From a virus, in IMG/VR virus record IMGVR_UViG_3300009079_000077, positions 1 through 30,994 of that record: 30,994 nucleotides of DNA; one strand, 5' to 3'. Under the pieces are notes generated by a model. That model saw nothing but the letters and a program-made list of their open reading frames with translations, had not been told where the DNA came from and made no database searches. Numbering within the stretch: position 1 is the stretch's first letter; every line of letters starts with the position of its first letter. The translations under genes and the position numbers were made by a program. Positions 1 to 30,994 of this stretch are shown piece by piece.

Positions 1-1920
1 TGGACTAAAGGTGGATTGGAGAACTTTAAAAACAATCCAATTATACTTTTTAACCATGATTATAACAAACCTATCGGTAGAGCAACTGGTTTAGAAGTCA
101 CTGACAAAGGCCTAGATATTACTGCAAAAATATCTAAAGCTGCAGGTGACATTACTCATTTAGTGAAAGATGGTGTCCTTGGCGCTTTTTCAGTTGGATT
201 TAGATGCAAAGAATCTGACTATATGACAGAGCACGATGGATATAAAATTAAAGACGCGGAACTATTTGAAGTCTCAGTAGTATCAGTACCTTGCAACCAA
301 GGGGCAACCTTTGGATTAAGCAAGTCATTTGATTCTATGGATGATTACAGAAAGTACCAAAAAGAAATATTACAGGCTAACTCAACTGCACCAGCAGATG
401 CTGTTAAAATTGAGCAGCCAAGCGAGGAGAAATCCTCATCAACGGAGACTGATATGTCAGAAGAAAAAAAATCTCCTGAAACTTCAATCGATCTTGAAGC
501 ATTTGCAAAAAAAGTAGCAGAAGATACTGCGACTAAAATTGCGATGAAGCAAGCCGAACAGAAGGCAGCAGACGAAGCTAAACAACAAGAAGCAATTCAA
601 GTTGAAGCTGAACAAAAAGCTGTTCAAGAAGCAAAGGAAATGGAAACAAAAACTATAGTGGAAGCTGGTTTGACAGGAGCTGAAAGGCTAATGAACGACC
701 TAGAAACTAGAGTCAATGAAAAACAAGAAGACTTAAAATCAGTAGTCGATAGCCTAGAAAAGCAACTCGCTGAGAAATCAGAAGAAATCATGAATATTCG
801 TGAATCTAAAAGAGTTTTTGCTAATAGACAAGGTAACGGCGACTGGAAGAAAGACTTTGAACAAGATGTTATGGATGCAAAATTTGCTGGTTTAGCGACT
901 GGTAAAGGTTGGGATACAGACTACTCTAAGTCATTAATGGAAAAAGTTAATGCACAAGCAGGTGTAGAAGTATCTTCAGCTAACTTTGAACAGTTAGTAT
1001 CAACATCAATTGAAAGAGATATCCAAAACGAGCTAGTATTAGCTCCATTATTTAGAGAAATTCAAATGAATTCCGCTAATATGGTTATCCCAGTATTACC
1101 AGACGCTGGTTATGCTGAATTTACATCAGGACAAACAGCTGGTGGAAGTAATCCAAAAGGAAACTTAGAAGCTAGAGGCGCCGCTTTAGGTGCTAATGAT
1201 GGTGTTGACTTAACAGAAGTTACATTATCAACTAAAAAGCTTATTTCACAATCTTACTTAGGTAACGAGACTGAAGAAGATGCAATCATGCCTATCCTCC
1301 CTTTAATCAGAGAGTCAATGGTAAGAGCACATGCAAGAGGTATCGAGAATGCTATCTTAGCAGGTGACAATGCTGAAGGTGTATATGGTACATCAGCAGC
1401 AGCTTTTGAAGGTTTGATTGAGCATGCAAGTAATGGTTCATTTAATACTGTAGACGTCGGTGGCGGTTCAGGTGGAATCTTTGCAGCAGGCGATGCTTTA
1501 ACTGCAGCAGACCTATTAGGTCTAAGAAAGAACATGGGCAAATATGGTGTTAATCCATCAGAAGTTGTTTATCTTGTTTCACAAGAAGGTTACTACAACC
1601 TACTTGAAGATGCAGAGTTCCAAGACGCTAACCTAGTTGGTGACATGGCTACTAAATTAAGTGGTGAAATCGGACAAGTATTTGGCTCAAGAGTCATCTT
1701 ATGTGACGAGTTCGCTTCTAAAGCAGCTTCAAAAACTGGTGCTATCGCAGTATACCCAAGAAACTATGTAATGCCTAGACTAAGAGGTGTAACAATAGAA
1801 TCTGACTACGAAGTAGCAAACCAAAGAAGAGTACTAGTAGCTTCACAAAGATTAGGCTTTGCCGAATTGATTGAGAATGCACACACAGTACACGGATGGA
1901 AGTACGCAGCAGCTAGTTAA
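1..1920 (+). CDS. Prohead protease-major capsid protein fusion (5' partial)
   Basis: The frame is open from base 1, so the true start lies left of the window; the TTG at 16 is only the first possible start inside it. Numbering from 16, residues 1-100 look like an HK97-type prohead protease (S78/U35): NPIILFNHDY with a candidate catalytic His14, GAFSVGF with Ser59, and FEVSVVSVP with Glu85. Residues about 150-270 are Ala/Glu/Lys-rich and predicted by eye to be coiled coil, like the HK97 delta (scaffold) domain. Residues about 280-634 fit an HK97-fold major capsid protein. The protease would mature the prohead by removing the delta segment and then itself. In HK97 these are two genes; here they are one frame. 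An in-frame ATG at 454 with GGAG 6 nt upstream could make a separate delta-capsid product. The gene ends in a strong terminator. Confidence 0.88.
   Translation, partial: WTKGGLENFKNNPIILFNHDYNKPIGRATGLEVTDKGLDITAKISKAAGDITHLVKDGVLGAFSVGFRCKESDYMTEHDGYKIKDAELFEVSVVSVPCNQGATFGLSKSFDSMDDYRKYQKEILQANSTAPADAVKIEQPSEEKSSSTETDMSEEKKSPETSIDLEAFAKKVAEDTATKIAMKQAEQKAADEAKQQEAIQVEAEQKAVQEAKEMETKTIVEAGLTGAERLMNDLETRVNEKQEDLKSVVDSLEKQLAEKSEEIMNIRESKRVFANRQGNGDWKKDFEQDVMDAKFAGLATGKGWDTDYSKSLMEKVNAQAGVEVSSANFEQLVSTSIERDIQNELVLAPLFREIQMNSANMVIPVLPDAGYAEFTSGQTAGGSNPKGNLEARGAALGANDGVDLTEVTLSTKKLISQSYLGNETEEDAIMPILPLIRESMVRAHARGIENAILAGDNAEGVYGTSAAAFEGLIEHASNGSFNTVDVGGGSGGIFAAGDALTAADLLGLRKNMGKYGVNPSEVVYLVSQEGYYNLLEDAEFQDANLVGDMATKLSGEIGQVFGSRVILCDEFASKAASKTGAIAVYPRNYVMPRLRGVTIESDYEVANQRRVLVASQRLGFAELIENAHTVHGWKYAAAS
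444..456 (+). promoter_or_regulatory. Internal ribosome binding site and start for capsid-only product
   Basis: GGAG at 444-447 is followed, after 6 nt, by an ATG at 454-456 that is in frame with the protease-capsid gene. It lies exactly between the protease domain and the coiled-coil delta segment. Translation from here would give a 488-residue delta-plus-capsid protein (MSEEKKSPETS...). The spacing is ideal for initiation. That it is used is inference; it would solve the need for far more capsid than protease. Confidence 0.6.
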
Positions 1921-6049: not shown

Positions 6050-6499
6050 TTGGAAAACAAAGAAGTAGTACAAGAATTAAAAAAAGAACCAATATCGCTT
6101 AAGAGCTTACTTGCTCCTAGCAAAACCGTAGAATTTGATTATCCTGGGATGGAAGATTTCAAAGTTAAACTAACTTATCTTGCAAGAGAAGAGTTATTAA
6201 AATTACGTAATAAATGCGTAACTAATAAGTTTAATAAGAAAACTAGAGCATACGAAGAAGAATTCGATGCAGATAAATTCCTACCTCAGTATATATCCGC
6301 AGTTATAAAAAACTGGACTGGACTGAAGTATAAATACTTAGAAGAGCTTCTATTAGTTGATACATCAGGGGTCGATACAAATGATTGCTTAGAATTTACA
6401 CAAGAAAATTGTGAAGTTCTAATGAAAAATTCAAACGATTTCGATACATGGGTTACTGAACAAGTTGGTGACTTAGAAAATTTTACAGAACGCAAGTAA
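6050..6499 (+). CDS. G: Tail assembly chaperone G
   Basis: This 149-residue protein starts at TTG 6050, with GGAG at 6039-6042 and a 7-nt spacer; no in-frame ATG lies upstream. It resembles the lambda gpG-type tail chaperones in size, acidic and helical character, and position between tail tube and tape measure genes. The segment 'YLAREELLKLRNKC' and the later 'ISAVIKNWTGLKYKY' are typical of this group. It would bind the tape measure and recruit tube subunits, and is not part of the virion. Near its end lies a complete -1 frameshift signal, so a fraction of ribosomes make the longer GT product. Uncertainty is mostly about symbol, not role. Confidence 0.85.
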   Translation: MENKEVVQELKKEPISLKSLLAPSKTVEFDYPGMEDFKVKLTYLAREELLKLRNKCVTNKFNKKTRAYEEEFDADKFLPQYISAVIKNWTGLKYKYLEELLLVDTSGVDTNDCLEFTQENCEVLMKNSNDFDTWVTEQVGDLENFTERK

Positions 6500-6513
6500 T
6501 ATTACTACTTGCG
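6478..6513 (+). promoter_or_regulatory. Programmed -1 ribosomal frameshift signal (G to GT)
   Basis: In the G frame the bases read GAA AAT TTT, giving the canonical X XXY YYZ heptamer A AAT TTT at 6478-6484. Six nt later a perfect 8-bp stem starts (CGCAAGTA, 6491-6498, with TACTTGCG, 6506-6513; 7-nt loop). The stem covers the G stop codon (6497-6499). The -1 frame is open from 6472 to 6855. All three parts of a -1 signal are thus present at usual spacing. Confidence 0.93.
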
Positions 6514-6855
6514 GATTTAGAAAGATTTTTTAAAAATGACATAGACTTAGATAAGTATCTAAGAGTATGTGAACAATTAGGACAGGAACCTGATCCCGCT
6601 AAAATGCCTCCGTCTCGTGGCGAATTGCCATACGAGGTACAAATAGCATTTTCAATTCATGACATGCTCCCCGATAGATGGGATGGAATGTCTGGGTCTT
6701 ATTTTGGAAAAGATTTATCAGCATTAGGAACAATAATAGATATATATGAAGTTGAAGACAAGAAACAATGTGTTTTTTGGCTAAAAAACATCGAAGCTCT
6801 CAACAGTCGTTCAATAAACGATAGAATGACACAAGAGAGAAAGCGTAAAAAATAA
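6484..6855 (+). CDS. T: T part of the frameshifted tail chaperone GT
   Basis: This is the -1 frame extension of G. Slipping on AAATTTT joins 145 codons of G (from 6050) to 123 codons here, giving a 268-residue GT fusion. The T part begins YRTQVILLLADLERFF and ends in a very basic tail (RKRKK). The frame has no good start of its own: the first ATG, at 6604, lacks a ribosome binding site and would drop the conserved-looking first 40 residues. Lambda GT binds tail tube subunits through its T domain and the tape measure through G. The stop overlaps the tape measure start (TAATG). Confidence 0.88.
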   Translation, partial: YRTQVILLLADLERFFKNDIDLDKYLRVCEQLGQEPDPAKMPPSRGELPYEVQIAFSIHDMLPDRWDGMSGSYFGKDLSALGTIIDIYEVEDKKQCVFWLKNIEALNSRSINDRMTQERKRKK

Positions 6856-13418: not shown

Positions 13419-16400
13419 ATGAGAAATATAAATAAAAACGGTACCGCAGCGTCTTCTCCAGTTGGCGTAACACGAAATAGACGAAGAAGTCCTAATCAGG
13501 AACAGTCTGTTATTGTCTACGATTTAATATCAGAAGGACCTATTGAAGGACTTATAAATGGAGCTTCATCCATATATTTAGATACTACTCAAGTTTTAAA
13601 TAATGCATATAAAACTTCCCATAATCCAAAACAAAGTTTTGATGTATCTTACAATGCTAGTACTAATACTATTACTGATAACACAGGTTCTTCTATGTTC
13701 TCAGGATATAACTCCAGTAATGGAAGTTATAAAGTTAGAATAGAAGAAGCAAAAAAGACTATTTCAGGAATATCTATAACAGCAGGTAGTAAGACTGTTA
13801 CTTCCTCAGGAGGTTTTGCTACTAATGATGTTTCAAAAGCATACGTAAGTGGTCAATATTTAAGAATAAAAGAAGGCGGTCCAAATAAAACAACTTTAGT
13901 ATGTAAAATTACAAAATACACAAGTGCAACTTCTGTAGAGATAGATAGAATGGCAGAAATAACTGCGTCATCTTTAGCAGGTACTATTGATTTATGTGGA
14001 ACTGTTAGTTCTACTAGCAATGCAAATACAGCTGTAATTACACCTGATACTGGTGGAGATAGAACAGTTGCAAACACAGCGGCTTATATGGATAGCCCCT
14101 CAAGTGTAGCAGAATATCAAGCAACAAATTTTAATTATAATTTTGATAACGTAACTTATGGATTTAAAACAGGAGAAAGAAGTCAATCTTATGTAGGTAC
14201 TGCAGCAGACACCGGCAACGCTTCAGTGATTGCAAATATTAGTAAAACACTTACAACTACTGATTTAAGTGGAATAGGGGTAAGTAATAATTTTAATAGT
14301 TATGGATATAGTACTTCAGGAGACGAAACAGCTACTTGGACAGCTAATCCAATTTTTATTACTTCTACTCAAATGAATGTAAGTACTCAAAAATCTGCAG
14401 TAGATAGATTAAAACTTACTTTCCAATATGATAATATGCATGCCATAAAGTCAAAAAACGGAAGAGAATGGCCTTCTATGATAGAACACAGAATTTATCT
14501 TAGATACAAAAATCCAGGAGATGCAAACTTTACAGAAGACTTGCTATATGGTCCAACAGACTCACAATTATTAGCTAGACCATCGAATAAAAGAGTACAC
14601 GGTTGGACTTATACTTCTTCAGGAACAGTAGAAGCTTATTGTAAAAATCCTTTTGTAGAAGTATTTGATATTAACTTAGAGCCTTACCAACCTCTTGAAG
14701 ACTATGAAATAAAACTTGAAACAATTACTCCAATTAATAGAGAACATGGAGAAACTACACACTATAATTCAGGTAGACTTGCTTCTATAGAATCAGTTAT
14801 TAATGACAAACTTTCTTATCCTTTAGCAGCTTATGGGCAGATGATGTTTAATGCTTCTGACTTTGGAAATGTTCCAGAAAGAGGTTATCACGCAAGAGGA
14901 TTAAAAGTAATGGTGCCTACTAACTATTCTCCTAACCATGAAGGATATGAAGGAAGCCCCGCACAATATACTAGAAATATTACTACAGGAGCAGTAGGAA
15001 GTGACTATGTAGCATGGGATGGAAACTTTAGGGGAGATACAGATGTCTTTGACGCAACTTCTCCTAACTTTGAGAAAGTATACTCTAATAATCCTGCATG
15101 GGTTTTCTATGATATAATGACCAATGACCGATATGGTTGTGGAGAGTATATAGACGCTAGTGATATAGATAAATATGCTTTGTTTAAAATAGCAAGATAT
15201 TGTGATGAATTAGTACCAAATGGAGAAGGAGGTACAGAACCTCGTTTTACAGCAAATGTGTGGTTTACTGAACAAGCAGAAGCTATGAAAGTTGCACAAG
15301 ATATGTTATCTATTTTTAGAGGTATGATGACTTGGGTAAATGGACAAATTACAATAGAGCAAAATAGAGAAAGGTCTCCAATAGCAGCTTTTAATAAAGG
15401 CAATGTATTAGGGGGTTCATTTTCTTACCAGTCAACAAGAAATAGATTTAGATATAATCAAGTTAATGTAACATGGAATGACCCAAAAGCTTTTTATAAA
15501 AAAACAGTAGAAATAGTAGAAGATTACGACAACATAGTAGAAACAAGACAAATAAAGAAAAAAGATGTAGTCGCATTTGGTTGTACTAGTAGAGCGCAAG
15601 CAGTAAGATATGGTAAGTGGCATTTATTTACAGACCAAATGGAAACTGATGTAGTAACATTCCAAGTAGGATTAGAAGGTGTAAATTTAAGTAGTGGAGA
15701 TGTAATAACAGTTGCTGATGCAGATAGAAACAATCTAAGATTCGGAGGAAGAACTTTAGCTAATTCTACTACTACTAATATAAAAGTAGACTCTTCCTTA
15801 GATTTATCAAATACAGCAACCTTCTTTATGGAAGTAGTATTCCCAGAAGGTGGAGCATATTTACAGCAAGATACCGCAACAATAAGAGGAGCTTCTAGAA
15901 AAAGAGGAGACTTTATACAATATGCAAATAATGTTGCAGGATCAAATACAGCGCTAACGTCTGAAGCTATAATGATAAATGCAGTAGATGATAGCGATAA
16001 TAAGTTAGATTTAGTATGGTCTGGTGAGACAAGAGTTGAAAGACAAGAAGTATCAAGTTACAACTCTACAAGTGTTACTGTCGCTAGTGCCTTTACTAGT
16101 GCACCTGCAACTCATAGTATTTGGGCAATTATAGAACTTGATGCAGATGGACAAATGGTTCATGGTTCTGCTAAAGAGTATATGATACAGAATATAAAAG
16201 AAGACGACCAAGATCCTATATTTGCAATATCAGCAGTAGAATATAATAGGAAAAAGTTTTCTTTAGTAGATAGAGGGTATGTTATAGAAGATTTACCAGA
16301 GACAACAAGAATGCCTAGGTACACAGAAAACGTACCATTCCCTACAGATGTAGTATTGAAAGCGGTTCCTCATCAACAAGAAAGTATAGATGGAACAACT

Positions 16401-19400
16401 GAAGCACCTGAAAGCTCAGCATTAGATTTAGCAATAACCTGGGGGCATCCGAGTACAGATAGAACGGACACAGCCGGAAATACAATTACAAACAAATACG
16501 AATTTATAGAATCCTATGAAGTAAAACATAACTTAGGATTTACAGGGAAATTTAAGACAGAGATAATTCCTTCTACGGAAACTTCCTTCTTACTAGAAAA
16601 CCCTGCACAAAAAATAGGTACGGTACTGGTAAGACTTACCAATACACAAGGTCATTTCTCAAAATGGATAAGGAGAGAAATTGATACTTCCCTAATGGTA
16701 TTAAAAATACCAACGAGTACTACTTCTAAAATTGGTGCTATAGCAACAGGTGGAGGTTTATCCACTGGGCTAAGTATCAACTCATCAACGGGATTAGCAA
16801 GTCTTGGCAGTACAACCTATGATTTTACAAATACAGTAGGAGACCTAATAAGTGTTTCTTCAGGTAATACAGCACAAACAAGTCAAGTATTTTCAGGAGT
16901 CAGTGATGGTGGAGAAGCATTTGTAGTTCATGATTTTGATGATGCAGCAGACCCTCTTAAAGCAGTAGAGATAAAAAAAGATACAACTGCAAGAAATCCA
17001 AATGTTGGAGATAACAATGAAATTGTATATTACAATTTTGAATATGTATCAGAGGTAGGTGCTGCTAATGCTGGACTCACACAAAAAACAGGTACAGTTT
17101 CAATCCCACAATATAGTTCAGAAGTAACAGGTAGTGGAACAAGTTTTACTACAGAATATGAAGTCGGAGATAGAATTATAATTGATACTAGTACTACTCG
17201 TTATTTTGCTACTGTTACTTCAATAGAAAGCAATACAAAATTATTCTTAGACCAGTCTGTACCAAGAAGTTATAGTAGTGTAAATATATTTAAAACAAGT
17301 TTTATTTCAACCAACCAAGATACAGTAATAGGAAAAGTAACTAGAAGCGGAAGTACATATACTTTGGTTTCTTTCTTATCAGGAGGTACAGGAGAAGACG
17401 GTCAAGATGGACAAGATGGTGAAGACGGTCAAGACGGTCAAGACGGTCAAGATGGAACTGCAGGTGATAGAGGTAGAAAAATACAAGAGATTATTTTATA
17501 CTACAAACAAACCTTTAATAATGCAAATATATCAGCTCCTTCCGCACCAAGTACAGGTACTTATAATTTTAGTACTGGCACCGTAGCTAGTATACCTTCG
17601 GGGTGGGTAGCAGTACAACCTGAATTTGCAGTAGGAAGCATAATATTTAAATCAGAAGCTCTTGCACTCGAAACCACATCTTTGAATGATGTCTCAGGAA
17701 GTTTAACTTGGGGTACTCCAAGTAACGCTTTTAGTCCTCAAAATGATATTAACTTTATATTTATAAGAAGTGCTAATCAACCAACTACTCCAAGTATAAC
17801 AAACTTTCCTATAATACCTACAGGCTGGCATGATGATATAGCAAATGTACCTAGCGCAGCAACTCCAATATGGGTTGTAAAAGGTGTTACAGCATTTGAT
17901 ACTAGTGGCGGAGCTTTTAGATTCAGAACTACTTGGCAGGCTGCTAATATAATTGAAGGCAGCAATGGAACAGATGGAACAGATGGAACAGATGGAGACC
18001 CAGGAGCAGATGGAGATGATGGAGCATCAAACTTTACCGTCTTCCAAGAATCCAGTAGTCAACCTGCTACTCCAAGTGCAGGAACCCCAAATCCACCAAC
18101 AAGCTCTTGGTACTCTACTCTTACTGCTGCAAGAAACGCAGTATCTGGAGATGGATTAGTATGGTTCTCTGTAGGAACAAAACCAGGAACAAGTAATACG
18201 ATTACTTGGAGCGTACCTATAAGATATGTAGAAGATTATGGAAACTTAGGCGGAACAAAACCACCTGAAGATGCGAATAAATTTACACCAATTGCCGATT
18301 CCACAGAAGGTCGTTGGAGATTCTCAATAAATGATGGTAGTACAACTGATGTAGATGTTTTCTCTGACACAGAAAGAACTAAACTAGATAATTTAAGAGC
18401 AGGAACTTTGCCTGGAGGAACAGGGAGTATAGAAAGTACTACAGGTTCTCAAAGTAAAGCTACAGCAGCTCAAACAGCCGCAGCTTCAGATGCTACTACA
18501 AAATCAGATGCAGCAGAAGCAGCAGCTAAATTACAAGAGTCTAATAACAGAGTTACATTCCCAACTGATAATACAGAGGGAAGATTCAGTTTCCAAATAG
18601 GCGGAGGCACTGCCGTTGTAAATAATGTTTTTTCTAGTGAAGAAAGAACAAAGCTAAATAATCTAAGAGCTGGAACTGCGCCCGGAGGAACAGGAAGTAT
18701 CTTAAATTCAGGAATAGCTCTAAGTTCTGCAGGTGCTTTAACAGGAGCAGGTGGAGGAACACTAGACCTTGACGATATAAATGATACAGGTACTACTAAA
18801 GCAGGGGCTATAAGAGCTAATGCAGGACTTAATTCTGATGGAGATGTAGACAGAGCAGTACCGGTAGGTGTAGGTGGAACAGGACAAACAAATACAAATA
18901 AATTTTTAAATAGCGGCATAGCTATTAGCCAAGGAAACTCTGGTGTATTTACACTAACAAAAGGAGATGGTACAACTGATACCACTACTATAACAAAAGG
19001 TAAACTAGGACTTTCATATACAGACGGTGCTGACATTACAGGGAATAATACAGCAAATAATGTATCAAATGTAGGTACTCAGACTGTAGCAAACGCCCAA
19101 CAAGCTGTTATAGCAGCTAACGCAGGTTTAACTACTACTGGAGATGTTAATAGAGCAGTCCCTACAGGTAAGGGTGGTACTGGTGAAACAAATACAAATA
19201 AATTTTTAAATAGTGACTTAGGAATTACCTTAGACGGTACTAATATTACACTTACAAAAGCAGGAGATACTAACTCAACGGACACAGTACCTACTGCACT
19301 TAAAAACTCTAATATAGCAATTAATGGTAGCGGACAGCTAACTGGTATTGGTACCGGGGTAAATACTGTTATATCAAACACTAAGATAGTAGCAGCTGAC

Positions 19401-20348
19401 ATAGGTGGCTCCGGAAAAGCATTCGCAGTTTTACCAGCTTCAGGAGCTACAGTAGGTGCGGTATTAGGTACTAACCTTAAAGCATCTAACGGTACAACTA
19501 CATTAGGCGACGATGACGTTAAAAACGACAGTCTTGACATAGATACAAACGGTACATCTATAAGAATTAAGAAAGGCTCAACAGTCATACAATCAACTAC
19601 TCTTGACAAAGGTAGTGTTGGACTAACTAATTTAAATTCACTTGAAACTGGTTCAGGAACTAAACTGAGTGGTATAGCAACAGGAGCTACAGTAGGTGCA
19701 GTTTTAGGCACTAATCTTAAAGCAGCTAATGGTACAACTACATTAGGAGACGATGATGTTAAAAACGCTTCTTTAGATGTAGCCATATCAGGAACAGCAA
19801 TTAAATTAAAAATTGGAAGTACTGAAACTTCAACTGTAAGTGCTACTCAAGCTCTCGTTGGATTAAGTGGAGTATCTAATAACGCCGACCAAACAAGTAG
19901 TAATACTGCTGCAGATGTTACTAATGTAAACGGTACAGCAGCCTCAACAGTGAAGGCAGGAGCTGTAAGAGCTAATGCAGGACTTAATTCTGATGGAGAT
20001 GTTAATAGAACAGTCCCTGTAGGAGTAGGCGGAACAGGTCAAACAGCTACAAATAAATTCTTAAATAGTGATATTGGTATTGCTATGGATGGAACTAATG
20101 TAACTATAACCAAAGCGGGAGATACTAACTCAGCTGTTGCTATTCCATCCACACTCAAAAATTCAAGTGTAACATTATCAGCTTCAGGTATACTATCGGG
20201 AGGAGGAACTTCAACACAGATAAATGTAGGAAGCATAGCAAACTCACCATTTGATACATCAGGAAATGTAGACACAGGGGAAACAATAACAGTTGGTTCC
20301 AAATTTACAATAGATAGAAATAACGAAAGGATATTAATAGAAGACTAA
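13419..20348 (+). CDS. J: Tail tip host-specificity protein J-like, greatly extended
   Basis: The protein has 2309 residues, about twice lambda gpJ. Residues about 1-1060 carry the J core: VIVYDLISEGPIEGL (31-45), the hub region with 'VFYDIMTNDRYGCGEYID' near 565-582, and 'LGGSFSYQSTRNRFRYNQVNVTWND' type sequence near 665-690. Fibronectin-like segments follow to about 1120. Two Gly-X-Y runs, at about 1325-1354 (GEDGQDGQ...) and 1517-1537 (GTDGTDGT...), look collagen-like and should trimerise. From about 1615 on there are three families of long repeats. The end is FTIDRNNERILIED. The core forms the trimeric hub and central fibre; the extension probably reaches the host receptor. There is no obvious ribosome binding site; the ATG lies 2 nt after the I stop. 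Confidence 0.9.
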   Translation: MRNINKNGTAASSPVGVTRNRRRSPNQEQSVIVYDLISEGPIEGLINGASSIYLDTTQVLNNAYKTSHNPKQSFDVSYNASTNTITDNTGSSMFSGYNSSNGSYKVRIEEAKKTISGISITAGSKTVTSSGGFATNDVSKAYVSGQYLRIKEGGPNKTTLVCKITKYTSATSVEIDRMAEITASSLAGTIDLCGTVSSTSNANTAVITPDTGGDRTVANTAAYMDSPSSVAEYQATNFNYNFDNVTYGFKTGERSQSYVGTAADTGNASVIANISKTLTTTDLSGIGVSNNFNSYGYSTSGDETATWTANPIFITSTQMNVSTQKSAVDRLKLTFQYDNMHAIKSKNGREWPSMIEHRIYLRYKNPGDANFTEDLLYGPTDSQLLARPSNKRVHGWTYTSSGTVEAYCKNPFVEVFDINLEPYQPLEDYEIKLETITPINREHGETTHYNSGRLASIESVINDKLSYPLAAYGQMMFNASDFGNVPERGYHARGLKVMVPTNYSPNHEGYEGSPAQYTRNITTGAVGSDYVAWDGNFRGDTDVFDATSPNFEKVYSNNPAWVFYDIMTNDRYGCGEYIDASDIDKYALFKIARYCDELVPNGEGGTEPRFTANVWFTEQAEAMKVAQDMLSIFRGMMTWVNGQITIEQNRERSPIAAFNKGNVLGGSFSYQSTRNRFRYNQVNVTWNDPKAFYKKTVEIVEDYDNIVETRQIKKKDVVAFGCTSRAQAVRYGKWHLFTDQMETDVVTFQVGLEGVNLSSGDVITVADADRNNLRFGGRTLANSTTTNIKVDSSLDLSNTATFFMEVVFPEGGAYLQQDTATIRGASRKRGDFIQYANNVAGSNTALTSEAIMINAVDDSDNKLDLVWSGETRVERQEVSSYNSTSVTVASAFTSAPATHSIWAIIELDADGQMVHGSAKEYMIQNIKEDDQDPIFAISAVEYNRKKFSLVDRGYVIEDLPETTRMPRYTENVPFPTDVVLKAVPHQQESIDGTTEAPESSALDLAITWGHPSTDRTDTAGNTITNKYEFIESYEVKHNLGFTGKFKTEIIPSTETSFLLENPAQKIGTVLVRLTNTQGHFSKWIRREIDTSLMVLKIPTSTTSKIGAIATGGGLSTGLSINSSTGLASLGSTTYDFTNTVGDLISVSSGNTAQTSQVFSGVSDGGEAFVVHDFDDAADPLKAVEIKKDTTARNPNVGDNNEIVYYNFEYVSEVGAANAGLTQKTGTVSIPQYSSEVTGSGTSFTTEYEVGDRIIIDTSTTRYFATVTSIESNTKLFLDQSVPRSYSSVNIFKTSFISTNQDTVIGKVTRSGSTYTLVSFLSGGTGEDGQDGQDGEDGQDGQDGQDGTAGDRGRKIQEIILYYKQTFNNANISAPSAPSTGTYNFSTGTVASIPSGWVAVQPEFAVGSIIFKSEALALETTSLNDVSGSLTWGTPSNAFSPQNDINFIFIRSANQPTTPSITNFPIIPTGWHDDIANVPSAATPIWVVKGVTAFDTSGGAFRFRTTWQAANIIEGSNGTDGTDGTDGDPGADGDDGASNFTVFQESSSQPATPSAGTPNPPTSSWYSTLTAARNAVSGDGLVWFSVGTKPGTSNTITWSVPIRYVEDYGNLGGTKPPEDANKFTPIADSTEGRWRFSINDGSTTDVDVFSDTERTKLDNLRAGTLPGGTGSIESTTGSQSKATAAQTAAASDATTKSDAAEAAAKLQESNNRVTFPTDNTEGRFSFQIGGGTAVVNNVFSSEERTKLNNLRAGTAPGGTGSILNSGIALSSAGALTGAGGGTLDLDDINDTGTTKAGAIRANAGLNSDGDVDRAVPVGVGGTGQTNTNKFLNSGIAISQGNSGVFTLTKGDGTTDTTTITKGKLGLSYTDGADITGNNTANNVSNVGTQTVANAQQAVIAANAGLTTTGDVNRAVPTGKGGTGETNTNKFLNSDLGITLDGTNITLTKAGDTNSTDTVPTALKNSNIAINGSGQLTGIGTGVNTVISNTKIVAADIGGSGKAFAVLPASGATVGAVLGTNLKASNGTTTLGDDDVKNDSLDIDTNGTSIRIKKGSTVIQSTTLDKGSVGLTNLNSLETGSGTKLSGIATGATVGAVLGTNLKAANGTTTLGDDDVKNASLDVAISGTAIKLKIGSTETSTVSATQALVGLSGVSNNADQTSSNTAADVTNVNGTAASTVKAGAVRANAGLNSDGDVNRTVPVGVGGTGQTATNKFLNSDIGIAMDGTNVTITKAGDTNSAVAIPSTLKNSSVTLSASGILSGGGTSTQINVGSIANSPFDTSGNVDTGETITVGSKFTIDRNNERILIED
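17391..17480 (+). repeat. Collagen-like Gly-X-Y run 1 in J
   Basis: About ten consecutive Gly-X-Y triplets, mostly GQD and GED, encoded by a 9-nt near-repeat (ggtcaagac). Such runs act as trimeric stalks in phage fibres. Confidence 0.85.
17967..18029 (+). repeat. Collagen-like Gly-X-Y run 2 in J
   Basis: Seven Gly-X-Y triplets (GTD three times, then GDP, GAD, GDD, GAS). It is separated from run 1 by a domain of about 160 residues. Confidence 0.8.
18270..20110 (+). repeat. Three families of long repeats in the J C-terminal third
   Basis: Family one (about 18290-18440 and 18560-18715): 'EGRWRFSINDGST...ERTKLDNLRAGTLPGGTGS' and its partner. Family two (about 18795-18920, 19095-19220, 19950-20070): 'RANAGLNSDGDVNRTVPVGVGGTGQT...NKFLNS'. 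Family three (about 19440-19540 and 19680-19775): 'GATVGAVLGTNLKA.NGTTTLGDDDVKN'. Some DNA stretches are identical between copies, for example about 36 nt at 18812 and 19967, and about 28 nt at 18887 and 19187. Confidence 0.85.
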
Positions 20349-26174: not shown

Positions 26175-29100
26175 ATGCCGTTAATAGGTAAATTTTTAGT
26201 ACAACAAGACTCAATAGGTAATAATAGTGTAGTTGCAAGTAAGATTGCTGCAAATGCTATTACAGCATCTGAGTTAGCTTTAAATTCTGTAACATCTGCA
26301 GAATTAGCAACAAACTCTGTTGGAGCTGCAGAACTACAGTCAACTGCTGTAACTTCAGTAGCAGATAACTCTGTAACAGCTTCAGGCTTAGCTGCAAACT
26401 CAGTAGATAGTTCAGAAATTGTAACAGGCAGCATAGACACTATACATTTAGGAACAGGACAAGTTACAACAGCGAAGATAGCTGGAAATGCAATAACCTC
26501 AAATGAGATAGCACAAAATTCAATCGATTCAAGCGAAATTGCCACTGGTAGTATCGACACAATTCACATTTCGGCAAATGCAGTTACAACTGCAAAAATT
26601 GCTGGCAACAACGTTACTGCTCATCATATTGCTGATGGGAGTATCACTAGCACTCAACTTGGAGCAAACAGTGTCGACAGCGCAGAATTAATTACTGGCT
26701 CGATCGATACGATACATCTAGGAGGTTTACAGGTTACTACTGCAAAGATCGCTGCAGGAGCTGTCACAACTGCTAAACTCGGAGATAATTCTGTCACTTC
26801 AGCAAAAATAGTCAATGGAACAATCGCGACAGCAGACATTGCAGACCTTGCTATAACAAGTGGTAAGATAGCTGCAAACACAATTTTAACAGCAAACATT
26901 GCTGACAACAATATAAACGGAACAAAAATAGCTACGGACAGTATAGTTGCAAGACATATAGCAGCTAACTCAGTAGATAGTGCAGAATTAGTCACTGGTA
27001 GTATAGATACTATACACTTAGCAGATGACGCAGTTACTGGTGCTAAAATAGCAGGATTAACAGTTACTGGCCCAAACATTGCAAATAACGCAATAAATGC
27101 TAACAAGATTGGTACAGATGTTATCGATGCATCACACATAGCAGCTGGTGTAGTAGGTTCTTCAGAACTTGCCGCAAATTCAGTAGATTCATCAGAATTA
27201 GTAACTGGTAGTATAGATACTATACATATTGGAGCATTACAAGTAACAACAGCTAAAATAGCTGATAACAATGTTACTTCAGGAAAAATAGTAAGCGATG
27301 CTATTGTAGCAAGACATATTGCAGCTAATGCAATTAATAGTGTTGACTTTATTACAGACGGTTTAATTAACACTGCACAATTAGCAGGTAATTCAGTAGC
27401 AACTGCAAAAATACAAGACAACGCAATAGATGCAACAAAAATAGCAGCGAATAGTGTAAGTGCAAGTGAATTAAAATCAGATGCACTAGGCGGACAAACC
27501 TTCTCAGGTAACGTTGTGTTATCTGGAAACTTAACTGTATCAGGAACAACAACTACAGTATCTTCTACAACAATCAATGTAGCAGACCCACTTCTTGCAC
27601 TAGCGACAACAAATAGTTCAGCAGATACAGTTGACATAGGTTTTTATGGATTGTATGATGTAGGCGGAACAGATAAGTATACAGGTTTATTCAGAGATGC
27701 TGGAGATTCAGGTAAATGGAAAATATTTAAAGATTTACAGACTGTACCAACCACAGTAGTAAACACAGAAGGCACAGGCTATGCAACAGGAACACTTGTA
27801 GCAAACGTAGAAGGAAATGTTACAGGTAACTTAACAGGAACAGCAAGTGCAATAGCAAACAATACTGTAAATGCAAGTAAGATTGTAGCAGGAAGTATAA
27901 CAACAGCTGAGATAGCAGCGAACACAATCTTAACAGCAAACATTGCAGATAACAATATAAATGGCACTAAGATTATAACTAATGCAATTGTAGGTAGACA
28001 CATAACTGCAAATGCAGTAAATACTAGTGAGATAGCAACAGGAGCTGTAGCAGCCTTACAAATAGCAGGTGATGCAGTAGATGGAACAAAAATTGCAGAT
28101 GATTCTATAGATTCAGAACATTATGCAGATGGCAGTATTGATACAGCACATATTGGAAACGGACAAGTAACAGAAGGCAAATTAGCAGCAAACTCTGTAA
28201 ACTCATCAAAAATAGTAAATGGCTCTATTGTAAACGCAGATTTAGCGAATAACTCTATAAGTGCTACTAAAATAGCAACTGGAGCAGTAGGTTCGTCAGA
28301 ACTAGCTGCAAACTCAGTAGATTCAAGTGAATTAGTATCAGGTAGTATTGATGGAATACATTTAGCTGTAAACTCTGTTTCCTCTAGTAAAATAGCTGGT
28401 AATGCTGTCGGAACAAGCGAAATAGCACTTAACTCGGTCACAGCTGGCATAATTCAAAACGGTATTGTAGGAACAGATGAACTAGCTGATAACTGTGTAA
28501 CAGCAGCTAAAATAGCAGATGGCTCTATTACTAGCACACAAATAGGCACTAATCAAGTAACTTCAAGCGAACTAGCAGGCAACTCTGTAGATAGTGCGGA
28601 GATAGTAAGCAGTAGTGTAGATACTATTCATATCACTAACTTAAATGTAACAAATGCTAAAATAGCAAACAATGCAATAACAAGTTCTAAAATAGCCGCT
28701 AACAATGTAGGTTCAAGTGAAATAGCAGCAAACGCTGTTGGATCAAGTGAGATTGCAAATAATTCTGTAACAACAACACAATTATCAAGTGCAGCACTTG
28801 GTGGTAAAACAATGACAGGAAGTATTACATTTGGAGGAGATTTAGGGTTTGGTGGAAGCACATCTAATAAAGTAAATGTAGCAGGTAGCATAGGTATTCA
28901 AGACACTAATCCACCACAAAAACTTCATATAGACGAAGTAGCTGGTATGGATGTAGGTTCAGGAACTTCTTCAGCAACAGCACAATTTACACTAGACACT
29001 TTTGCAGCAGCTACATTTAGAACTGCTAAGTACTTAGTACAAGTACATAATACAACAGACACAGATTTTCAAGCAATAGAAATTTTATTATTCCATGATG

Positions 29101-29261
29101 GCTCAGATGTTTACTTAACACAGTACGCATCTATATTTGAAAATGGAGCACAGGCAGCATTTGATGCAGACTTAGTATCAGGTAATATAAGGTTAAGAGT
29201 AACGCCAGCAAGTACAGATAGTATGGCATTTAAATTTATAAGGACAACAATAGAGGTATAA
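26175..29261 (+). CDS. Large repetitive tail fibre protein
   Basis: A 1028-residue protein with two long repeat shafts. The units run 'NSVDSSELVTGSIDTIHLG' then 'VTTAKIAGNAIT' and are present many times at residues about 15-435 and 560-875. Hydrophobic residues and Ala-Asn turns recur at short, regular steps, which fits a beta-helical trimer. An interruption at about 438-559 (GNLTVSGTTTTVSSTTINVADPLL, then LYDVGGTDKYTGLFRDAG) matches a domain known from T4-like cyanophage fibres. The C-terminal 150 residues form a head: 'GSIGIQDTNPPQKLHIDEVAG', then a beta domain ending IRTTIEV. TTTGGAG lies 10 nt upstream. It is probably the main long side fibre. Confidence 0.82.
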   Translation: MPLIGKFLVQQDSIGNNSVVASKIAANAITASELALNSVTSAELATNSVGAAELQSTAVTSVADNSVTASGLAANSVDSSEIVTGSIDTIHLGTGQVTTAKIAGNAITSNEIAQNSIDSSEIATGSIDTIHISANAVTTAKIAGNNVTAHHIADGSITSTQLGANSVDSAELITGSIDTIHLGGLQVTTAKIAAGAVTTAKLGDNSVTSAKIVNGTIATADIADLAITSGKIAANTILTANIADNNINGTKIATDSIVARHIAANSVDSAELVTGSIDTIHLADDAVTGAKIAGLTVTGPNIANNAINANKIGTDVIDASHIAAGVVGSSELAANSVDSSELVTGSIDTIHIGALQVTTAKIADNNVTSGKIVSDAIVARHIAANAINSVDFITDGLINTAQLAGNSVATAKIQDNAIDATKIAANSVSASELKSDALGGQTFSGNVVLSGNLTVSGTTTTVSSTTINVADPLLALATTNSSADTVDIGFYGLYDVGGTDKYTGLFRDAGDSGKWKIFKDLQTVPTTVVNTEGTGYATGTLVANVEGNVTGNLTGTASAIANNTVNASKIVAGSITTAEIAANTILTANIADNNINGTKIITNAIVGRHITANAVNTSEIATGAVAALQIAGDAVDGTKIADDSIDSEHYADGSIDTAHIGNGQVTEGKLAANSVNSSKIVNGSIVNADLANNSISATKIATGAVGSSELAANSVDSSELVSGSIDGIHLAVNSVSSSKIAGNAVGTSEIALNSVTAGIIQNGIVGTDELADNCVTAAKIADGSITSTQIGTNQVTSSELAGNSVDSAEIVSSSVDTIHITNLNVTNAKIANNAITSSKIAANNVGSSEIAANAVGSSEIANNSVTTTQLSSAALGGKTMTGSITFGGDLGFGGSTSNKVNVAGSIGIQDTNPPQKLHIDEVAGMDVGSGTSSATAQFTLDTFAAATFRTAKYLVQVHNTTDTDFQAIEILLFHDGSDVYLTQYASIFENGAQAAFDADLVSGNIRLRVTPASTDSMAFKFIRTTIEV
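26220..28790 (+). repeat. Degenerate repeat shaft in the large fibre
   Basis: Variants of 'aactcagtagatagttcaga' plus 'ggtagtatagatact' recur more than ten times, encoding NSVDSSE and GSIDTIH. Copies differ by many silent changes. The run is broken at about 27485-27850 by a non-repeat domain. Confidence 0.85.
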
Positions 29262-29487: not shown

Positions 29488-30994
29488 ATGGCAATATATG
29501 TTAATGACAGTGGTACACTACGTCAGATATCCTTCCTTGCAGTCAATGATGGCGGAACAATACGAAGGGTCAATGAAGTATATGTAAATGATAACAGTAA
29601 CTTAGCTGGCCCATTCTCTGCGGTTCATGAAACTGCTAGAAACACAGCAACTGTTAGAACTACAAACACAAATGACATTGTTACAACATTCAATACAACT
29701 ACAGCTTTTGATACAGACGTAGCTACAGTATCGGGATATAATACAAGCAGAGTAACAGAGTTCAATACATCTAGAAGTACTGAAACTAATTTAGTAACTA
29801 CATTTGCAACTACTACCGTTTTTGCTACAACAGTAAATACAACTACTGATTTTACTACTACCACTGCTTTCAATACAACCACAACGTTTAACACAACAAT
29901 TACTACTGTTACAGATTTTACAACTACAACGCAGTTTAATACAACAACAACGTTTAATACAAACACAACTACAACTACTGATTTTACTACTACCACTGCG
30001 TTTAATACAACCACAACATTTAACACAACAATTGCAACCACTACAGTATTTAGTACTGTTACTGCTTTTAATACTACTACAACGTATAATACTACACAGG
30101 GTACAACTACAGCATTTAATACAACTACTACTTTTACCACAACTACAACATTTGATACTAATACTAGTACAACTACAGCGTTTAATACGACTACTACTTT
30201 TACCACAACAACAACATTTAATACAAGTAAAAGCACAACTACAGCATTTAATACAACTACTACTTTTGAAACTACAACAGTATTTGAGACTAGCTTAAGT
30301 ACAACTACAGCGTATAATACAACTACTACCTTTAGTACAACGACAACGTTTAATACAACACTTACGACTACAACTGATTTTACTACTACTACAACATTTG
30401 AGACTAATTTAACTACAACAACTGCGTATGAAACTACTACTACTTTTACAACATTCTTTGATACAGTAATCTCTACAAGTAGACTTAGTGAGTTTACTAA
30501 CAATACAGCTTTTGCTACAACAAGAACAACAACATTTGGTACTGTTACTGCTTATGCAGATAACACTTCATTTGCTACAACAAGAACAACAACATTCGGT
30601 ACTGTCACTGCTTATGCAGACAATACCTCATTTGCCACAACGAGAACAACAACATTTGGTACTGTTACTGCTTATGCAGACAACACATCATTTGCTACTA
30701 CAAGAGATACAACGTATGATACTGTATCTACTTTCGTAGTAAGTACAAGTTATACAACTACTCAAAATACTAATACGAGTAGAAACACTGCATTGGCAGC
30801 TGTAAATACTAATTATACTACTACTCAAAATACTAATACAAGTAGGAATACTGCGCTGGCCGCTGTAAATACTTCATATGATACTACTCAAAGTACTAAT
30901 ACTGTAAGAAACACTGCGTTAGCTGCTGTAAATACTTCATATAATACTACTCAAAGTACAAATACTTCTAGAAACACTGCATTGGCCGCTGTAA
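29488..30994 (+). CDS. Giant Thr-rich repeat protein, putative fibre (3' partial)
   Basis: The frame opens at ATG 29488 and has no stop to the right edge (502 codons visible). The first 50 residues (MAIYVNDSGTLRQISFLAVN..., VNEVYVNDNSNLAG) are a compact beta-like head with a twice-repeated 'R.I....VNDGG/VNDNS' pattern. From about residue 60, more than half of the residues are Thr. Residues up to about 320 form a roughly 22-residue unit with aromatic residues spaced 6, 6 and 10 apart (AFNTTTTFTTTTTFDTNTST). Then comes a 20-residue unit (TVTAYADNTSFATTRTTTFG), and then a 21-residue unit (YTTTQNTNTSRNTALAAVNT plus one) still running at the edge. There is no signal peptide or Cys. A long thin fibre or surface adhesin is the best reading; the function is unproven. 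A long valine-rich frame on the other strand is only its shadow. Confidence 0.78.
   Translation, partial: MAIYVNDSGTLRQISFLAVNDGGTIRRVNEVYVNDNSNLAGPFSAVHETARNTATVRTTNTNDIVTTFNTTTAFDTDVATVSGYNTSRVTEFNTSRSTETNLVTTFATTTVFATTVNTTTDFTTTTAFNTTTTFNTTITTVTDFTTTTQFNTTTTFNTNTTTTTDFTTTTAFNTTTTFNTTIATTTVFSTVTAFNTTTTYNTTQGTTTAFNTTTTFTTTTTFDTNTSTTTAFNTTTTFTTTTTFNTSKSTTTAFNTTTTFETTTVFETSLSTTTAYNTTTTFSTTTTFNTTLTTTTDFTTTTTFETNLTTTTAYETTTTFTTFFDTVISTSRLSEFTNNTAFATTRTTTFGTVTAYADNTSFATTRTTTFGTVTAYADNTSFATTRTTTFGTVTAYADNTSFATTRDTTYDTVSTFVVSTSYTTTQNTNTSRNTALAAVNTNYTTTQNTNTSRNTALAAVNTSYDTTQSTNTVRNTALAAVNTSYNTTQSTNTSRNTALAAV
29800..30480 (+). repeat. 66-nt (22-residue) Thr/Phe repeat
   Basis: The anchor codons for Ala/Asp plus Phe/Tyr recur at 29848, 29914, 29980, then 29998, 30064, 30112, 30178, 30244, 30310, 30376 and 30424. 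Steps are mostly 66 nt, with some of 48 nt where one 6-residue piece is missing, and one short 18-nt step. Confidence 0.8.
30541..30720 (+). repeat. 60-nt (20-residue) repeat, three copies
   Basis: Copies at 30541, 30601 and 30661 are in exact register. The first two encode the same 20 residues but differ at seven nucleotides, all silent. A partial copy precedes them from about 30511. Confidence 0.92.
30751..30994 (+). repeat. 63-nt (21-residue) repeat, four copies, cut by the window end
   Basis: Units start at the Tyr codons 30751, 30814, 30877 and 30940. All keep TTQ, NT and RNTALAAVNT-type positions. Copies one and two differ by seven silent changes and one changed codon. Twenty-one residues equal three heptads, so a coiled-coil stalk is possible. 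Confidence 0.9.

Follow-up and report, generated by a model that had tools for sequence, protein, structure and literature searches.

Phages need hundreds of capsid subunits per few protease molecules, a ratio that fusing the two proteins seems to forbid. In T5-like phages, the prohead protease (pb11 in T5) and the capsid precursor (pb8) are encoded by two adjacent genes, and a stop codon precedes the ATG of the capsid. T5 prohead I is built of 775 copies of pb8, whose N-terminal scaffold is removed by pb11 (PMC5292684). Protease and capsid lie in one protein in the NCBIfam family NF045541 (prohead protease/major capsid fusion) and in PHROGs 617, 10 and 4523. Phage λ provides a different arrangement, C/Nu3, in which a second in-frame start inside the protease gene yields a shorter product that is needed in larger amount. 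Protease–capsid fusions and nested head-gene starts are thus each known already. We know of no described case, however, of a capsid precursor nested in a protease frame behind conserved structured RNA. A literature search in an open library found no protease–capsid fusion with an internal start, which is weak evidence of absence.

Here we analyze a gene that, like those families, joins protease and capsid in one protein. It lies at the 5′ edge of a 30,994-nucleotide stretch of viral DNA (IMG/VR record IMGVR_UViG_3300009079_000077), referred to below as the window.

Protease, delta domain and capsid share one frame

The fused gene occupies positions 1–1920 of the plus strand, as do all features below, and encodes 639 residues in an unbroken frame that is open at the 5′ edge of the window. 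Judged from relatives with more 5′ sequence, about 45–50 protease codons lie upstream of it. A Peptidase_S78 prohead protease domain (positions 40–333; residues 14–111 of the fused protein, Pfam E 1.1e-14) scores 55.4 bits against PF04586 (cut-off 21) and 65.9 bits against TIGR01543 (cut-off 59). Protease residues H19 and S64 are invariant in an alignment of 26 diverse relatives, consistent with an active protease. Beyond the protease lies a helical region at residues ~165–300, placed by an AlphaFold model whose low confidence (mean pLDDT 47.8) allows a rough helix map only, and homology to the T5 delta domain begins at residue 187. Counted from the nested start described below, the delta (scaffold) domain spans ~163 residues (454–942), near the 159 residues of its T5 counterpart; its end was placed with the mature T5 capsid chain 5tjt, which aligns from residue 316 of the window's protein onward. 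The mature HK97-fold capsid protein follows at 943–1917, as placed by Pfam and the 5tjt alignment, with Phage_capsid at residues 333–621 (E 5.7e-8) and scores of 32.9 bits against PF05065 (cut-off 24.2) and 47.5 bits against TIGR01554 (cut-off 27.5). T5 capsid chains match the fused protein with E values of 1e-51 to 1e-56. The open frame, the Pfam domains and the T5 homology together bear out the original prediction that a protease, a delta-type helical domain and an HK97-type capsid share one frame.

The nearest cultured relatives are the T5-like phages (Demerecviridae), in which a homologous protease and a homologous capsid with an N-terminal delta domain appear in the same gene order. The head module continues as in T5, with the same head completion protein (1973–2569, PF24163) and a T5-type tail completion protein. 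It departs from the T5 arrangement in that protease and capsid, separate genes there, are fused here and in all relatives. Against NF045541 the gene scores 50.5 bits, far from the cut-off of 525, and although its 5′ end is cut by the window, full-length relatives score likewise (47–53 bits). Other fusion families in bacterial genomes offered fragments or unrelated frames with no usable border for comparison, and Moraxella phage coat proteins are encoded by separate genes. Among the T5-like phages, the public record of Escherichia phage IME178 (L436) splits the protease gene or labels it as a short hypothetical protein, unlike other members, and in the records of two Aeromonas phages (L435 and L458) the protease gene is likewise fragmented or given as a short hypothetical protein.

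The fusion is kept across three clades

With the full protein as query, viral contigs yielded at least 599 related stretches, of which 80 were examined. Further queries were a second member (L130) and two distant ones from bacterial genome bins, L272 (47% identity) and L275 (57% identity). The relatives, a large set of uncultured marine phages, form three clades: A, which contains the window; B, of the L272 type; and C, of the L275 type. All 404 loci with a resolved border, from uncultured contigs of clades A, B and C, carry the fused frame. No stop codon was seen at the protease/capsid border of relatives, and indels between the conserved codons and the capsid ATG measure only 3 or 6 nt (lengths of the RNA element described below are 42, 45 and 48). 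The fused frame itself is therefore also kept. Two further clade A loci (L263 and L105) carry a stop within the protease domain, away from the border, which would be a sequencing error or decay.

Each of 15 long contigs (30–76 kb) holds a single Peptidase_S78 match and a single capsid match, and the fused gene accounts for both. A second copy of either protein was looked for and found in none of these 15 contigs, which are not known to be complete genomes.

A conserved nested start lies at the domain border

Within the linker between the protease and delta domains, an in-frame ATG (454–456, residue 152) follows a GGAG Shine–Dalgarno sequence (444–447) with a spacer of exactly 6 nt. All 116 non-redundant clade A borders have M152, while adjacent linker residues vary. 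These borders were collected by protein patterns, the first set of which avoids the linker; one of six later patterns (ADIMEKDM) overlaps it. Across clade A, codon 148 may encode M, T, K, E or P, yet its third base is always G, and codon 149 is GAG in all 116 borders; hence the conservation of GGAG extends to its nucleotides. Synonymous constraint within the gene peaks in the codon windows beginning at 149 and 137. Judged from these alignments, the third-base constraint at the nested start is of a kind that protein selection cannot explain.

Clades B and C also carry the start. An in-frame ATG with a Shine–Dalgarno sequence is present in 203 of 203 distinct borders from clades A–C, down to 47% identity, with a spacing of 6–9 nt in 202, although some of these borders were retrieved by a DNA pattern that includes the motif itself. 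By comparison, an in-frame ATG with a usable Shine–Dalgarno sequence occurs in 6% of stretches of 24 codons from other parts of these genes, and the contrast argues that ATG454 with GGAG(N6) is not a product of chance. In the window's gene, one other in-frame ATG with a Shine–Dalgarno-like sequence occurs, at position 691.

Downstream of M152 the protein aligns with the N-terminal region of T5-type capsid precursors, and T5-like capsid genes start at the same place as ATG454, usually with a Shine–Dalgarno sequence. On this alignment, ATG454 corresponds in position to the true start codon of the stand-alone capsid gene of T5-type phages. The original prediction had put an ATG with GGAG at the domain border and had set conservation in relatives as a check beforehand; both expectations held, with start, GGAG and spacing kept in every relative found. 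Its analogy to λ C/Nu3 holds in principle, in that a conserved internal start with a Shine–Dalgarno sequence defines a nested in-frame gene, and fails for the product: in λ the nested product is a scaffold and the capsid is a separate gene, whereas here the capsid precursor itself, scaffold plus capsid, is nested.

Two hairpins precede the nested start

Folding and alignment place a two-hairpin RNA element, which the original prediction had missed, at 375–437, a long hairpin followed by a short one, upstream of GGAG. Hairpin 1 (375–419) has an outer stem (375–378/416–419, GGCU/AGCC), then an internal loop (AA/C), a middle stem (381–385/410–414, CUCAA/UUGAG) and an apical stem (392–395/400–403, CAGC/GCUG). 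Hairpin 2 (424–437) reads GAGGA-GAAA-UCCUC. All 55 clade A representatives, folded singly, adopt the same fold with slight variation in stem lengths. Across 46 aligned sequences, 97.2% of the 762 pair cells are paired, 6 of 17 pairs show double changes (for example GGCU/AGCC to GACU/AGUC), and the covariation score is 0.192, against 0.105 for shuffled and at most 0.050 for slid alignments. One pair of hairpin 2 swaps between A-U and C-G at least 10 times on the capsid tree, a count that recombination could inflate. The G-U pairs within hairpin 1 speak for an RNA rather than a DNA palindrome.

No other 66-nt stretch of the gene is as structured as the border (mean −23.3 kcal/mol, against −17.3 for the next), and its folding z-scores against protein-keeping synonymous shuffles are −3.4 in clade A, −2.0 in clade B and −3.3 in clade C. 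The sequences of clades B and C are unrelated here, yet both clades show the same order of a first hairpin, a short second one and the Shine–Dalgarno sequence. Hairpin 2 ends 14–19 nt before the ATG in 83 of 98 (A), 38 of 41 (B) and 18 of 19 (C) distinct borders; most of the exceptions seem to reflect a second Met chosen by the automatic procedure or an additional weak hairpin close to the Shine–Dalgarno sequence. Each genome or contig has one strong match to the element, at the border. Apparent extra copies in L130 and L097 are weaker matches that look like chance, and a likeness of hairpin 1 to 16S rRNA helix 18 is at about chance level and is not kept in the other clades. The element has no Rfam match over the gathering score.

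T5-like phages, in contrast to the fused relatives, lack RNA structure at the border. Mean z-scores of border folding are −2.4, −4.2 and −2.9 in the fused groups and −0.74 in ten unfused T5-like phages. Because all ten belong to one family (Demerecviridae and kin), few independent origins underlie the link between fusion and hairpins. The coding frame contains conserved RNA structure at the very point that calls for a nested start, and the phages with separate genes lack it. Given the predicted nested start and the RNA element, annotating such genes as a single product is probably incomplete.

Internal initiation as the probable source of two products

We consider it likely that internal initiation gives the capsid precursor in excess of the fusion and that the hairpins are part of the start signal. 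Ribosomes from the upstream start would make the full-length protease–delta–capsid fusion, and others would initiate at ATG454 to make the delta–capsid precursor alone. The latter must predominate on this dosage argument, since capsid subunits are needed by the hundred and protease molecules only in small number. A weak protease start was considered as the source of the ratio and is not supported: its Shine–Dalgarno sequence is as good as the nested one (mean −6.7 versus −6.5 kcal/mol). A low ratio of fusion to capsid must therefore come from elsewhere. The tandem hairpins may keep the upstream mRNA compact right where the rear of an initiating 30S subunit would lie, and would probably slow or space ribosomes coming from the protease part, leaving the Shine–Dalgarno sequence free. 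The nested start could thereby be reached without the stop codon that parts the two T5 genes. The fusion, in turn, would bring the protease into the prohead via its own capsid domain. We infer that both proteins are made, as well as their ratio, the action of the hairpins and targeting by the fusion. One point counts against help from the hairpins in this mechanism: ribosomes arriving from the protease start would melt them.

The main alternative for the hairpins is RNA processing, which is compatible with the nested start. A ribonuclease would cut in or near hairpin 1 to give a capsid-only mRNA whose 5′ end is shielded by hairpin 2, and ATG454 would be used mainly on that mRNA. RNase III cuts long irregular stems in T7 mRNAs, and hairpin 1 is of this type in clades A and B; the hairpins also lie directly upstream of the Shine–Dalgarno sequence, and processing would account for capsid excess despite the strong protease Shine–Dalgarno sequence. 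In part of clade C, however, hairpin 1 has a stem of only 5–7 bp, short for RNase III, and no cleavage sequence is conserved across clades. We judge processing unlikely, at a minority chance.

Another reading gives the hairpins a role as an operator, at which a phage protein would regulate capsid translation from ATG454. Clade A offers a candidate site, with the 3′ strand GAGCAG and one unpaired C invariant, but loops and stems share no sequence across clades A, B and C, which is unusual for a specific protein site. A mechanical role of the hairpins is favored over binding by one specific protein on these grounds, and the operator reading appears improbable.

Still less probable is that the structure only pauses ribosomes for domain folding, with a single fusion product that the protease cleaves and with ATG454 surviving as a relic from the time when the capsid gene was separate. 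The structure does sit exactly at the domain border, and the frame is kept; a relic, however, would not retain GGAG and its spacing over clades at 47% identity, and with a 1:1 fusion each capsid subunit would carry a protease. Release of free protease by a programmed frameshift at the hairpins, with the ribosome restarting at ATG454, is very improbable and was dropped: a stem downstream of conserved codons resembles a frameshift site and many clade A members have a −1 stop overlapping the ATG, but no slippery heptamer was recognized at the conserved codons, stops in the −1 and +1 frames do not keep their positions, and the fused frame is fully open.

Internal initiation supported by the hairpins remains our preferred reading. 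Extended to a general rule, it would make the sequence-independent tandem-hairpin element an internal-start signal in actively translated coding sequence. Sitting where the 30S footprint has its rear edge, the element would replace the missing stop codon and allow a protease fusion and a capsid to be made in unequal amounts from one frame, in hundreds of marine phage genomes. This wider proposal is tentative, and we rate its chances a little short of even. If hairpins do drive internal initiation amid elongating ribosomes, they would constitute a simple, sequence-free design rule for obtaining two proteins in different amounts from one bacterial frame.

Other features of the window

Downstream of the head module, positions 6050–6855 encode a tail assembly chaperone (phrog_313) and, after it, a second frame in −1. 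A canonical slippery sequence, A AAT TTT, lies near 6478–6484, just ahead of the chaperone stop, and the region probably represents the usual −1 frameshift of tail chaperones. Two repeat-rich proteins are encoded at 26175–29261 and 29488–30993, one with repeats around NSVDSAELVTGSIDTIHL and the other rich in Thr, Phe and Asn and cut by the window end. Between the chaperone region and these two, positions 13419–20348 encode a very long central tail fibre of 2309 residues with collagen-like GQD repeats.
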